NCBI GenBank assembly: GCA_022340885.1
Contig: JAJDND010000066.1
Span: 1-64,000 of the forward strand
From: Desulfobacterales bacterium
GTDB lineage: Bacteria; Desulfobacterota; Desulfobacteria; Desulfobacterales; UBA11574
Direction of reading: 5' to 3'
Length of the DNA stretch: 64,000 bases
The notes under the pieces were generated by a model. The model made no database searches and was not told the DNA's origin. It was given only the letters and a program-made list of their open reading frames with translations. Shown here piece by piece: positions 9,378-64,000 of the stretch. The translations under genes and the position numbers were made by a program. Each line of letters starts with the position of its first letter. The first letter of the stretch is position 1.

Positions 9378-9521
9378 GAAGTGGTTTCAAAACCTTCAAT
9401 CGAATTTAAGGTCAAGGCGGACTGAGACGGCCAAGCGCAGGAATATCGCGAATATTTCGAGGATTGGCCGTCTCAGTCCATCACAGAGATTGAGTCCGAG
9501 GGGAGGTTTTGAAACCACTTC
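9378..9521. repeat. Repeat family A, copy 2 (144 bp nested palindrome)
   Basis: Outer arms gaagtggtttcaaaacct / aggttttgaaaccacttc (18 bp perfect); inner arms ggactgagacggccaa / ttggccgtctcagtcc (16 bp perfect); core gcgcaggaatatcgcgaatatttcgagga. Confidence 0.92.
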
Positions 9522-54104: not shown

Positions 54105-54200
54105 GAAGTGGTTTCAAAACTTTCAATCGGGTTTAAGGTCAAGGCGGACTGAGACGGTTAACCGCAGGAATATCGGGAATATTTCGAGGATTGACCTTTA
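54105..54200. repeat. Repeat family A, copy 3, right part missing
   Basis: gaagtggtttcaaaactttcaatcgggtttaaggtcaaggcggactgagacggttaaccgcaggaatatcgggaatatttcgaggattgacc; near-identical to the left part of copy 2. Confidence 0.85.
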
Positions 54201-60124: not shown

Positions 60125-61081
60125 TCAGGGCCCCGGCAACTCCACCGCATACGTGTCAAGCTGCGGAACTTTCTTGATCAAACCCTGCTTTTTCAGAAAT
60201 TCGGCAAAACGCCGGTACCGGTGGCGATCCAGGGCGCCCGGCCGAAGGGCAAAGCGGGAAAGTGTGTCGCGCCATGCCAGACGATTCAACCGATTATCCA
60301 GATCTTTCCTTCCCCGAATAAAAAGTTCCCAACTGCGCTTGGGGTGGTTGACCAGATATTGAACGCCCTCTTCCAGCGCGTCAACGAACTTTCTGAGCTT
60401 TACATTGTGAATGGCATCGCGATGGGCAACCAGTATGAGTTCATCATAGGAGGGAATGCCGTATTCTTCCACAAAAAAGGCACGCCCCGGCCGTTTGTCG
60501 ATATCCATCTGATTCAACTCAAAATTTCGAAAGGCGCCGATAACCGCATCCGTATTCCCGGAATAAAGAGATGGCAGCAGTGAAAAATTGACATTGACCA
60601 GCTTTACGTCATCCAAAGATAGGCCCTGGTTTTCAAGCATGACCTTGAGAATAACCGTCTCAAATCCGCCGATTGAATACCCGATGGTTTTGCCCTTGAG
60701 TTGTGCAAGATTGTCGATGCCGCTGTCTGCCATAACGACCAGTGTATTCAAGGGTGTTGCGATCAGTGTCGCAATTCGAACCAATGGCAATCCTTGATCC
60801 ACGTGAAGATAATGCTGGGGTTGATAGGAAACCCCAATATCGGCATTTTTTGCGGCGACAAGTTTCGGGGGGTCGTTCGGGTTCGAAGGAACCTGGAAGC
60901 TGACATCCAGCCCGCGCTCTTTGAAAAATCCTTTCTCAGAAGCAATAATGAGCGGCCCATGGTCCGGGTTGATGAACCAGTCGAGTACCACCGTTATTTT
61001 TTCTGATGCAACCGCGGTATCCGAAACGCCGACCAAGAGAGCCGCCGCGATGAAATAAACCATAAGAAGTTTCAGTTTCAT
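60125..61081 (-). CDS. thiY: Thiamine-precursor ABC transporter substrate-binding protein (ThiY/NMT1-like)
   Basis: ITVVLDWFINPDHGPLIIASEKGFFKERGLDVSFQVPSNPNDPPKLVAAKNADIGVSYQPQ; downstream of a TPP riboswitch. Confidence 0.9.
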   Translation of the reverse strand: MKLKLLMVYFIAAALLVGVSDTAVASEKITVVLDWFINPDHGPLIIASEKGFFKERGLDVSFQVPSNPNDPPKLVAAKNADIGVSYQPQHYLHVDQGLPLVRIATLIATPLNTLVVMADSGIDNLAQLKGKTIGYSIGGFETVILKVMLENQGLSLDDVKLVNVNFSLLPSLYSGNTDAVIGAFRNFELNQMDIDKRPGRAFFVEEYGIPSYDELILVAHRDAIHNVKLRKFVDALEEGVQYLVNHPKRSWELFIRGRKDLDNRLNRLAWRDTLSRFALRPGALDRHRYRRFAEFLKKQGLIKKVPQLDTYAVELPGP

Positions 61082-61854
61082 CGGTTGTTTTTCTCCTTTT
61101 TATTTTCTTCTTTATTTTCTTCTTTTTGCCAAAAAACAAGCTTGGTCATCATCCTGTCCACTATAAAATAAAGTGTCAGGGCAACGATACACAAAACCGC
61201 AAGGGCTGCAAACATGACATCGATCTGCATGCGGGCATTGGTATAAAGCATATAAAACCCAAGGCCTTTACTCGACCCCACCCATTCTCCCACAACAGCA
61301 CCGATGGGAGCCACGGCCGTCGCAACTCGAAGCCCCGAGGCAAAGGCCGGTAGGGCCGCGGGAATACGGATCTGCCGAATGACCGCCATCGGCTTGGCAT
61401 TCATCACCTGTGCAAGTTCCAGCCACTCCGGTTCGGTACTTCGCAGCCCATCGTAAAACGCCGCCGTCACCGGAAAAAAGATAATCAGGACCGCCATGGC
61501 AATCTTTGAACTCATGCCGTATCCAAGCCAAAGAACGAGAAGGGGCGCCAATGCAAATACCGGAATCGCCTGACTGATGACAAGAACCGGCAGCAGCCAT
61601 CGTTTTAAAGTGCGAAATGCAATCATGCTAAGCGCATTGAAAGCGCCCCAGAGTGTTCCGATGAGCAATCCGGCAATAATTTCCAATACCGTTATCTCGG
61701 CATTGTCCAATAACGGGCCGGCATGTGATAATGCAGCTTCGGCGACTTTTACGGGACCGGGCAATATGTAAGCAGGAACGCCGGATACCATCACAATGGT
61801 TTGCCACACGGCAATCAATCCGAACAAAATGACCATCGGACGGATAAAGTTCAT
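61078..61854 (-). CDS. ABC transporter permease (ThiX-like)
   Basis: SsuC/TauC-type permease; IAMAVLIIFFPVTAAFYDGLRSTEPEWLELAQVMNAKPMAVIRQIRIPAALPAFASGLRVATAVAPIGAVVGEW. Confidence 0.92.
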   Translation of the reverse strand: MNFIRPMVILFGLIAVWQTIVMVSGVPAYILPGPVKVAEAALSHAGPLLDNAEITVLEIIAGLLIGTLWGAFNALSMIAFRTLKRWLLPVLVISQAIPVFALAPLLVLWLGYGMSSKIAMAVLIIFFPVTAAFYDGLRSTEPEWLELAQVMNAKPMAVIRQIRIPAALPAFASGLRVATAVAPIGAVVGEWVGSSKGLGFYMLYTNARMQIDVMFAALAVLCIVALTLYFIVDRMMTKLVFWQKEENKEENKKEKNNR

Positions 61855-62633
61855 GGTACCTCCCGGCTCTCCAGTCGTTCGATCAATTCCGCCTGCATGG
61901 AAATAACGGCGGGTTCTCCGGGTTTGCGCGGCGGAGTGCCGGGCGGAATCAAAGGATCGCTGAATCTTGCGGGTCTGCCGGTCATCACATATACGCTGTG
62001 TCCGAGACGCAGCGCTTCAAGCGGATCATGGGTCACCATCAACACGGTTGCCCCCCCGACCAGCTTTGCTGCCAAATCCTGAAGTTTGAGTCTTGTAAGC
62101 GCATCGAGCGCCGAAAACGGTTCATCCATTAAAATGATCGAACGCTCCTCCATAAGCGTTCGCAACAGCGCCACGCGCTGGCGCATTCCGCCGGACAATG
62201 CCGAAGGAAGCGCATGGGCATAGTCGCCCAAGCCCGCATCTTCAATCAGCGAAATCGCTCTTTTTTTCTTCTGATCGGACATCTCATGGCGCAACCGCGC
62301 CCCGAGGCAGACATTGTCTACGACATTCAACCAGGGCAGCAACAAATCTTTCTGCGCCATCCAGGCGGTTCGTTCCTGACGGTCATAGCCGTCGTCAAAA
62401 CGAATGACACCGGAGAGTCCGTCATGAAGGGTTCCTGAAATCAATCGGAGCAATGTCGACTTTCCGCAACCGCTGGGACCGATGAGACACGTCCACTTTC
62501 CGCTGGTTACGGTAAAATTCAGAGATTTAAAAATCAGTGCGCCGGGATAGGCAAACGTCACCTGTTCCAACGTAATACTCGGTGCAGTTGAAGGTGAGCC
62601 GGGTTGATCATCGGTTTTGAAGTCGTTGTGCAT
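61851..62633 (-). CDS. ABC transporter ATP-binding protein (ThiZ-like)
   Basis: CLIGPSGCGKSTLLRLISG, ALSGGMRQRVALLRTLMEERSIILMDEPFSALDALTR, VTHDPLEALRLG. Confidence 0.93.
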   Translation of the reverse strand: MHNDFKTDDQPGSPSTAPSITLEQVTFAYPGALIFKSLNFTVTSGKWTCLIGPSGCGKSTLLRLISGTLHDGLSGVIRFDDGYDRQERTAWMAQKDLLLPWLNVVDNVCLGARLRHEMSDQKKKRAISLIEDAGLGDYAHALPSALSGGMRQRVALLRTLMEERSIILMDEPFSALDALTRLKLQDLAAKLVGGATVLMVTHDPLEALRLGHSVYVMTGRPARFSDPLIPPGTPPRKPGEPAVISMQAELIERLESREVP

Positions 62634-62730
62634 TGAATTCCGTAAAAAATTGCGAGTACGTATGTGAAACTTTGATTTGGATTAACCGAAATGCCGGATA
62701 ACAGGAAGGAAAATCGACAACAACATAACA

Positions 62731-62970
62731 TCAGCTTCCCTACGCCGGCATGAACCGGATCAGGTTCCAGGGGTCGAAGCTTCAAGCCTCCTCTCAGCCG
62801 ATTTGTGTCGAGACCTTTGAAAAATGTTCATTTTTGTTCAAGTTCAAGGAAGACGAAAATTTTAACCGCAGGAATACATAGAGTATTTTGAGGATTAAAA
62901 TTTGAGCCTAACGTAGAAATTGGGCAAAAAGGGGGGTTTTGCAAAGGTCTCGAATCGGCTCCCCCAGTGA
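62731..62970 (-). ncRNA. TPP riboswitch (minus strand) interrupted in P3 by repeat family A copy 4
   Basis: Minus: tcactgggggagccgatt-[insert]-acacaaatcggctgagaggaggcttgaagcttcgacccctggaacctgatccggttcatgccggcgtagggaa, i.e. THI-box CTGAGA...ACCTGATC...GCGTAGGGAA. Confidence 0.9.
62809..62952. repeat. Repeat family A, copy 4 (144 bp), inside the TPP riboswitch
   Basis: Outer arms cgagacctttgaaaa / ttttgcaaaggtctcg; inner arms aaattttaa / ttaaaattt; core ccgcaggaatacatagagtattttgagga. Confidence 0.9.
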
Positions 62971-63120
62971 CAATAATTTGCTTGCTATCACGGGAGGCTG
63001 TATTTGTCAAACTATCGCTCAACATTTGACTTGGTGTCTTGCGGTCATAGGACACAGATGGATACGAAGGAATATTTGCTTGCAATTTTTTACACCCGCT
63101 GATAAATACATCCCATTAAA

Positions 63121-63208
63121 TCCGGATAGGGGTGTTCTGATTTTATTGCAGAACTGAGAACAAACCCTTTGAACCTGATACAGTTAGCACTGTCGTAGGG
63201 AAATCGGA
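63121..63208 (+). ncRNA. TPP riboswitch upstream of thiD
   Basis: ataggggtgttctgattttattgcagaactgagaacaaaccctttgaacctgatacagttagcactgtcgtagggaaatcgg. Confidence 0.95.
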
Positions 63209-63322
63209 AAACCATGCGTTACGTTTAGATGCCGCCATTCTTTTCAGCGTTTTTCACCCCCCTATGGATATCGTGCTCCCAAGTTAAATTCTAAACCAAC
63301 GGTTTGCATCAGGAGGTTTTTC

Positions 63323-64000
63323 ATGCGAGTCGCCCTTACGATTGCAGGCTCGGATTCATCGGGCGGTGCTGGTATTCAAGCGGATCTGAAAACGTTTCAG
63401 GCCCTTGGCGTATTCGGCATGAGCGCCGTCACCGCGGTCACCGTCCAAAATACTCAAAAAGTATACGATATCCAGGAGATTCGACCCAAAATCGTTCACG
63501 ATCAGATTGCCTGTCTCTTTGACGACATTGAAATCCATGCCGTAAAGATCGGCATGGTTTCCGGTATCGAACTGATTCAAGCCATTGCAAAAGCCCTGAA
63601 ATCTGTGAATCCGCCGGCGGTTGTTCTCGATCCGGTAATGATTTCCAAAAGCGGATACCACCTGTTGAAACAGGACGCCAAGGATGCGTTGATCCGGTAT
63701 CTGTTCCCATTGGCCGAAGTCGTAACGCCCAACATTTATGAAGCACAGGCGATCACCGGTCATGACATTCATAATACCGACGACATGAAAACCGCGGCTG
63801 TCGACATTTTGAACCTTGGCGCCAAAAAAGTGGTTGTCAAGGGAGGACATCTTGGAAAAGACCAGGCTACAGACATACTCTATGACGGCCGGGAATTCAA
63901 TAAGCTTCAAAGCCGCCGGGTGGACACAAAAAACACCCATGGTACCGGTTGTACGTTTTCTTCGGCCATTGCAGCCAATATCGCCCTGGGAAAACCTTTT
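63323..64000 (+). CDS. thiD: Hydroxymethylpyrimidine/phosphomethylpyrimidine kinase, 3' end off the window
   Basis: MRVALTIAGSDSSGGAGIQADLKTFQALGVFGMSAVTAVTVQNT, LDPVMISKSGYHLL, KNTHGTGCTFSSAIAANIALGK. Confidence 0.96.
   Translation, partial: MRVALTIAGSDSSGGAGIQADLKTFQALGVFGMSAVTAVTVQNTQKVYDIQEIRPKIVHDQIACLFDDIEIHAVKIGMVSGIELIQAIAKALKSVNPPAVVLDPVMISKSGYHLLKQDAKDALIRYLFPLAEVVTPNIYEAQAITGHDIHNTDDMKTAAVDILNLGAKKVVVKGGHLGKDQATDILYDGREFNKLQSRRVDTKNTHGTGCTFSSAIAANIALGKPF

Follow-up and report, generated by a model that had tools for sequence, protein, structure and literature searches.

A palindromic MITE is inserted in the P3 loop of a TPP riboswitch upstream of a putative thiamine-precursor ABC transporter operon, in a draft genome (G000; 3.55 Mb, 228 contigs) whose named close relatives are Desulfobacteraceae/Desulfobacterales metagenome genomes. 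Our window, the whole stretch of 64,000 nucleotides analysed here, lies in contig C104 of this genome. We consider it probable that the riboswitch is a working one that has tolerated the insertion, and that the element arrived by undirected insertion into intergenic DNA followed by selection. The features concerned, by position in the window, are as follows.

62729..62971, minus strand: whole TPP aptamer, interrupted (P1, P2, P3 with the element, P3a, P4, P5), from Rfam match, fold and alignment
62953..62960, minus strand: P3 5' strand AGCCGATT (agccgatt), from reading and empty-site alignment
62796..62803, minus strand: P3 3' strand AATCGGCT (aatcggct), continuing into conserved CTGAGAGG, from reading and empty-site alignment
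62810..62951, minus strand: palindromic MITE in the P3 loop, 142 bp, GAGACC...GGTCTC, TIR GAGACCTTTG/CAAAGGTCTC; many copies have the same ends
62952..62956, minus strand: left target-site copy GATTC, from the 5-bp TSD rule of the element family
62805..62809, minus strand: right target-site copy GACAC, 3/5 identical to the left copy, from the same rule
62691..62697, minus strand: CCGGCAT, complementary to the P5 3' strand ATGCCGG (62751-62745), from direct reading
62983..63010, minus strand: putative promoter TTGACA-16-ATAGCA, immediately upstream of the aptamer, read by eye
61851..62633, minus strand: ATPase of the ABC transporter, leading gene of the putatively regulated operon (PF00005)
61078..61854, minus strand: ABC transporter permease (PF00528)
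60125..61081, minus strand: NMT1/THI5-like substrate-binding protein, ThiY-like (PF09084, E=2.4e-67)
63118..63219, plus strand: second TPP riboswitch, uninterrupted, divergent, upstream of thiD (RF00059, 68.4 bits)
63323..64000, plus strand: thiD (HMP/HMP-P kinase), continuing beyond the window end (TIGR00097, 302 bits)

The two TPP riboswitches of the window point in opposite directions, one towards thiD (plus strand) and the other towards the ABC transporter (minus strand). The interrupted aptamer thus has the thiamine-gene context of an RF00059 member, with ATPase, permease and NMT1/THI5-like protein downstream and thiD divergent. From these three genes we infer that the operon encodes a thiamine-precursor transporter, no NCBIfam equivalog giving it a name. 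The putative promoter was not called in a consensus promoter/terminator scan, which returned nothing; relatives carry a similar sequence, TTGACA-16-TTAGCA. Given its position upstream of the aptamer, the element would fall inside the transcript. CCGGCAT, retained in most relatives, is a possible candidate for the switching sequence.

The preliminary description had placed a repeat-family element between the P3 arms agccgatt and aatcggct on the minus strand, as a palindromic repeat inserted in the P3 loop. The sequence bears out both arms, and the insertion is confirmed by the empty site seen in relatives. The limits of the element needed correction, from 144 bp (62809..62952) to 142 bp (62810-62951): in a search of its own genome 40 copies were scored, and in most of them the match ran exactly between GAGACC and GGTCTC, covering 62951-62810 only. 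Since the family makes a 5-bp TSD, deleting the 142 bp together with one TSD leaves an empty site AGCCGATTC-AAATCGGCT (joined, AGCCGATTCAAATCGGCT) with a P3 of 18 nt. This replaces the 21-nt agccgatt-acaca-aatcggct proposed earlier and agrees with the 17-19 nt of intact relatives. The TSD pair of this copy, GATTC/GACAC, has 3/5 identity, by itself not significant, and by comparison of its two halves it is eroded at two of the five positions.

The element has the properties of a MITE: a TIR (GAGACCTTTG/CAAAGGTCTC), a fixed 5-bp TSD and many short copies without an ORF. Allowing at most one mismatch, the 15-base TIR was found at 93 ends in G000, compared to 0 for the reversed control pattern, and all 24 of the 24 family genomes searched contained copies, with at least 10 matches each. 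The 5-bp flanks were identical at 0.77 of positions in G000 versus 0.32 in shuffled pairings (36 copies, z=12.9) and at 0.78 versus 0.31 in the bacterial family (77 copies, z=20.7), while 4- and 6-bp flank repeats were near background. No autonomous element with the TIR of the MITE was found in G000 itself. Transposases with PF01609 and DUF772, IS5-family-like, were detected in G002 (L360, C262) and G016 (L379, C84), their best NCBIfam match being IS5_4 with 134.5 bits against a cut-off of 140. About 180 bp upstream of the transposase starts lie GAGACCTTTGCATAACC and GAGACCTTTGCACAACC (pattern GAGACCTTTGCA(T/C)AACC) in G002 and G016; the second TIR of these loci was not found, as the contigs end there. 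These genes are candidate autonomous parents, and an IS5-like origin of the MITE is likely, if unproven.

Further palindromes of this kind were seen. At 9378-9521 and 54105-54199 of the window are elements with another TIR (GAAGTGGTTTCAAAACC), which have the hairpin-tip core GCAGGAATA...TATTTCGAGGATT in common with the riboswitch element, where chance would give 0; judged by this core, MITE subfamilies with different ends have one common core. The thi leader of G014 contains a MITE-like palindrome with a similar core, GGGTTCGCGAAAAAAC...TTATTTTTTCGCGAGCCC (L098); it lies in the 5' UTR, about 50-250 bases before the ATPase start, with an intact TPP aptamer on one side and the transporter gene on the other. 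In G000, fragments of the TIR are found at, or overlap, the ends of genes for enolase, an EF-Tu-like and a phosphatase-like protein (L049, L060, L038), and such solo TIR ends may supply stop codons or starts.

Orthologous leaders with an uninterrupted P3 of 17-19 nt were present in the same genus (G001, G002, G004) and in the same family (G007, G008, G010, G014, G016, G017, G019). They share with G000 the aptamer, the promoter-like TTGACA-16-TTAGCA and, where checked, the downstream genes; six of them (G001, G002, G004, G007, G010, G014) score about 77-81 bits with RF00059, and the P3 of G007, GAGTCGATTCAATTCGGCTGAG, is nearly the empty site of G000. At the level of sequence, the empty sites in sister species prove that the P3 insertion is a real MITE insertion. 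We observed the insertion in one genome only, G000: searching 395 genomes of the order for an element end beside GCTGAGAG (pattern TIR-spacer-GCTGAGAG) returned, apart from G000, just 2 chance-looking matches. That the long P3 is an ancient native variant or an assembly artefact is hardly credible. A draft metagenome assembly with repeats does invite the latter suspicion; however, the short P3 of same-genus relatives refutes nativeness, the element has dozens of other copies with TSDs, and a chimera would not join the halves of a single aptamer with thiD, riboswitch and transporter in their conserved order.

The state of the aptamer was assessed on an alignment of 14 leaders with the joined G000 flanks, in which 28 pairs were tested. 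These aptamer pairs were formed in 95.7% of cells; six had changed on both sides compared with 1.8 in shuffles, and sliding the pair partners, as a control, lowered pairing to 29-53%. Helices P1-P5 follow in the right order in the fold, with pair counts taken on the joined-flank alignment, and the core motifs CUGAGA (J3/2), ACCUGAU and CGUAGGGA are all present and identical to those of relatives at invariant columns. Among the changes in G000, C to T in P3a gives a G-U pair and A to T in L5 gives the Rfam consensus letter. Folding was thermodynamic only. In the MFE structure of the full 266-nt leader, P1, P2, P3, P3a, P4 and P5 form as in the joined version, and the element stem stacks on P3 across a bulge of CACAA. 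Whether the element was present or removed, P1, P3, P3a, P4 and P5 had pair probabilities that agreed to two decimals; P2 was seen in the MFE structure. The proposal that the element would lengthen P3 and leave the aptamer unbroken fits this predicted fold, which keeps all aptamer helices. P1 (GTCACT/AGCTGAT, one bulge) had been thought weak and a possible sign of decay, a reading not supported by G002, whose uninterrupted leader has the same P1 with one bulge and scores 78 bits.

The Rfam TPP model RF00059 found the 3' two thirds of the split aptamer, but at 49.2 bits against a gathering cut-off of 54.3 and without scoring the halves as one aptamer: the alignment takes the 3' end of the element as a stand-in for the true 5' half, and the model's failure to reach across the insert explains the score below the cut-off. 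We therefore classed the locus as an interrupted TPP riboswitch on its empty-site orthologs and fold, not on the Rfam score. Standard annotation would overlook or misplace it, and covariance-model annotation under-calls interrupted riboswitches, the TPP case falling under the Rfam cut-off. Rfam miRNA matches on the element (MIR7807, MIR2670) were dismissed, being far under cut-off and reflecting only the palindrome.

On the reading that we prefer, a non-autonomous MITE with a 5-bp TSD, probably moved by an IS5-family-like transposase, inserted into the apical loop of P3 in a working riboswitch that would control the transporter. The element being palindromic, its transcript is predicted to fold back and to stack on P3 as a long extra arm, while P1, P2, P3a, P4, P5 and the conserved binding nucleotides stay unchanged; with these unchanged, the riboswitch most likely still senses TPP. 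As far as alignment and predicted fold can tell, the insertion is structurally tolerated. Against tolerance, the aptamer is completed later in transcription when a 142-nt hairpin must be made first, which could impair kinetic control. It is unlikely, though worth weighing, that the insertion broke the riboswitch, that the operon is unregulated or silenced and that the aptamer looks intact only because the insertion is young. The restriction of the P3 insertion to one genome would fit such a loss, as would the intact second riboswitch at thiD, which makes thiamine sensing independent of the interrupted copy. On the other side, the fold is unchanged with the element, P1 is the same as in intact G002, and the TSD is eroded at 2/5 positions while all core columns are unchanged, a statistically weak point with about 1-2 changes expected if young.

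The same family was found in cobalamin riboswitches of sister genomes. In G000 itself our searches detected two riboswitches each of the SAM, TPP and cobalamin classes; one cobalamin aptamer adjoins an element copy (L031) and the other lies 103 bp from a copy (L015). An RF00174 scan of 24 genomes gave about 88 matches, two of which (G017, G019) were about 150 nt too long. In both, an element (82% identical) occupies the cobalamin hairpin loop GCCACUG-[]-GGGAAGGC as a 153-154-nt insert, and the model matches full-length across it with 109.5 bits (G017) and 106.2 bits (G019; cut-off 31.5). The orthologs with an empty hairpin, G010 and G014, score 117.2 and 125.3 bits and have the same downstream gene; this GCCACUG-GGGAAGGC loop insertion is one insertion common to two species, and in the predicted fold of the G017 leader the cobalamin aptamer forms with one arm made longer. 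In G012, with a perfect TSD (GATAA/GATAA), the element lies in an internal loop 5' of the B12 box, and the model aligns across it at 85.9 bits (cut-off 31.5). G002 carries it in an optional cobalamin hairpin (CCTTTTTCC/GGGAAAAAGG), again with a perfect TSD (GGGAA/GGGAA); this aptamer scores 40.7 bits with RF00174 (cut-off 31.5), its 5' end being lost at the contig end, and the empty form of the hairpin is seen in G000, G001 and G003. In G003 another cobalamin riboswitch, cut by the contig end, carries in its GCCACUG loop a sister element with TIR TAGTGTC...GACACTA, which belongs to a common second subfamily in the genus, and in G020 the element directly follows the cobalamin aptamer, with TSD AACCT/AACCT.

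Elements or fragments begin a few bases from the 3' end of a cobalamin aptamer in G000, G003, G001, G020 and G002 (L224/L269/L272/L275/L282); these are perhaps partly one inherited insertion and partly independent, as for G020 with its AACCT/AACCT duplication. A further copy (L007, G000:C168:36401-36542) separates a SAM-I aptamer (59 bits) from the intrinsic terminator CCTCTCcttgtGAGAGGTTTTTTTTT, which puts it inside the expression platform upstream of a methionine-synthase-like gene.

Two candidate signs of selection were rejected. The riboswitch copy of G017 has three paired changes in its TIR (GAGGCTTGTG/CACAAGCCTC), absent from other copies in four genomes. However, a copy between two tRNA genes (L294, G019:C300:4868-4993), whose ends are strongly changed yet complementary, shows even more, with six paired double changes, so DNA-level palindrome correction explains the G017 changes equally well. 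The ends of L294 suggest either such correction or selection acting on the hairpin as a transcript. Nor did the comparison of G017 with G019 support an insert that drifts while the aptamer is frozen: the element is 7% different and the aptamer halves 13.7% and 5.9%.

Two explanations had been offered for the position of the element in P3, selection for tolerated insertions or a preference for hairpin loops. The first is the better half, gaining support from the independent cobalamin-aptamer insertions; the second did not hold, as pairing of the flanks across the insertion differed little from shuffled flanks (z=0.9 for 36 copies, z=1.6 for 77 copies), and copies in strong stems made up 2.6%, compared with 2.1%. 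Specific targeting of hairpin loops or riboswitches by the element strikes us as quite improbable. It would account for the 3/6 TPP, SAM and cobalamin riboswitches of G000 that touch a copy, with a fourth 103 bp away (a post hoc count), and for the several cobalamin insertions that sit in loops. Besides the negative flank-pairing test, Rfam scans round 39 further copies (the best 19 from other genomes, plus 20 from genus g7) revealed no riboswitch at a copy, and the tests run so far point to no riboswitch excess over intergenic length. By our own rough estimate (about 100 subfamily copies, about 0.5 Mb of intergenic DNA and about 0.9 kb of TPP plus cobalamin aptamer per genome), undirected insertion predicts about 4 copies in aptamers over 24 genomes; we saw six copies from five events, numbers close enough that undirected insertion plus selection suffices. 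The concentration of insertions in loops is suggestive only, since insertions in the core of an aptamer may escape the Rfam search.

Dense bombardment of intergenic DNA by MITEs, with tolerated insertions becoming peripheral riboswitch arms, would thus explain the TPP and cobalamin cases together: the same family would supply "variable insertions" of riboswitches by undirected entry and a subsequent selection filter. We give about an even chance to the broader proposition that MITEs are a recurring source of peripheral aptamer arms (TPP P3, several cobalamin sites), some inherited across species, with the aptamers working and perhaps retuned. Long non-conserved insertions at peripheral riboswitch sites are known, and their origin is rarely visible. 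Here one can see the donor MITE, the duplicated target and, in sister species, the empty sites, for two riboswitch classes. Odd-sized extra riboswitch arms seem to have mobile DNA as one of their natural sources, and the idea that transposons build arms of RNA sensors without breaking them becomes testable on naturally occurring pairs of leaders, one carrying the insert and one lacking it.

In the literature searched, with subscription journals outside its scope, we found neither a published description of a 142-bp Desulfobacterales family with a 5-bp TSD nor a report of a MITE inside an aptamer. A review of MITEs only speculates on riboswitch-like structures arising from them (PMC10969869); the element described here resembles the IS-derived bacterial MITEs treated there in being small, AT-rich, palindromic, intergenic and multi-copy, with TIR and TSD and no ORF. 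P3 of the TPP riboswitch varies in length, and the E. coli thiC riboswitch given the extended P3 of K. pneumoniae thiC stayed responsive (PMC12632268). The aptamer core and helices are the same as here; the origin of such extended stems is unstated, whereas in the present case P3 is extended by a recognisable 142-bp transposable element that has TIRs and whose site is empty in sister species. Riboswitches are described as tolerant of long non-conserved stem-loop insertions (PMC2258182), which likewise occupy tolerated peripheral sites and leave the core intact; in contrast to those, the origin can be seen here, in two riboswitch classes, to be transposition that duplicated its target. The BOX element of pneumococci (PMC3049150) is similarly a palindromic, MITE-like repeat that has become part of a composite riboswitch leader, apparently one that still functions, but BOX lies between two T-box riboswitches, whereas the element described here lies within an aptamer helix.
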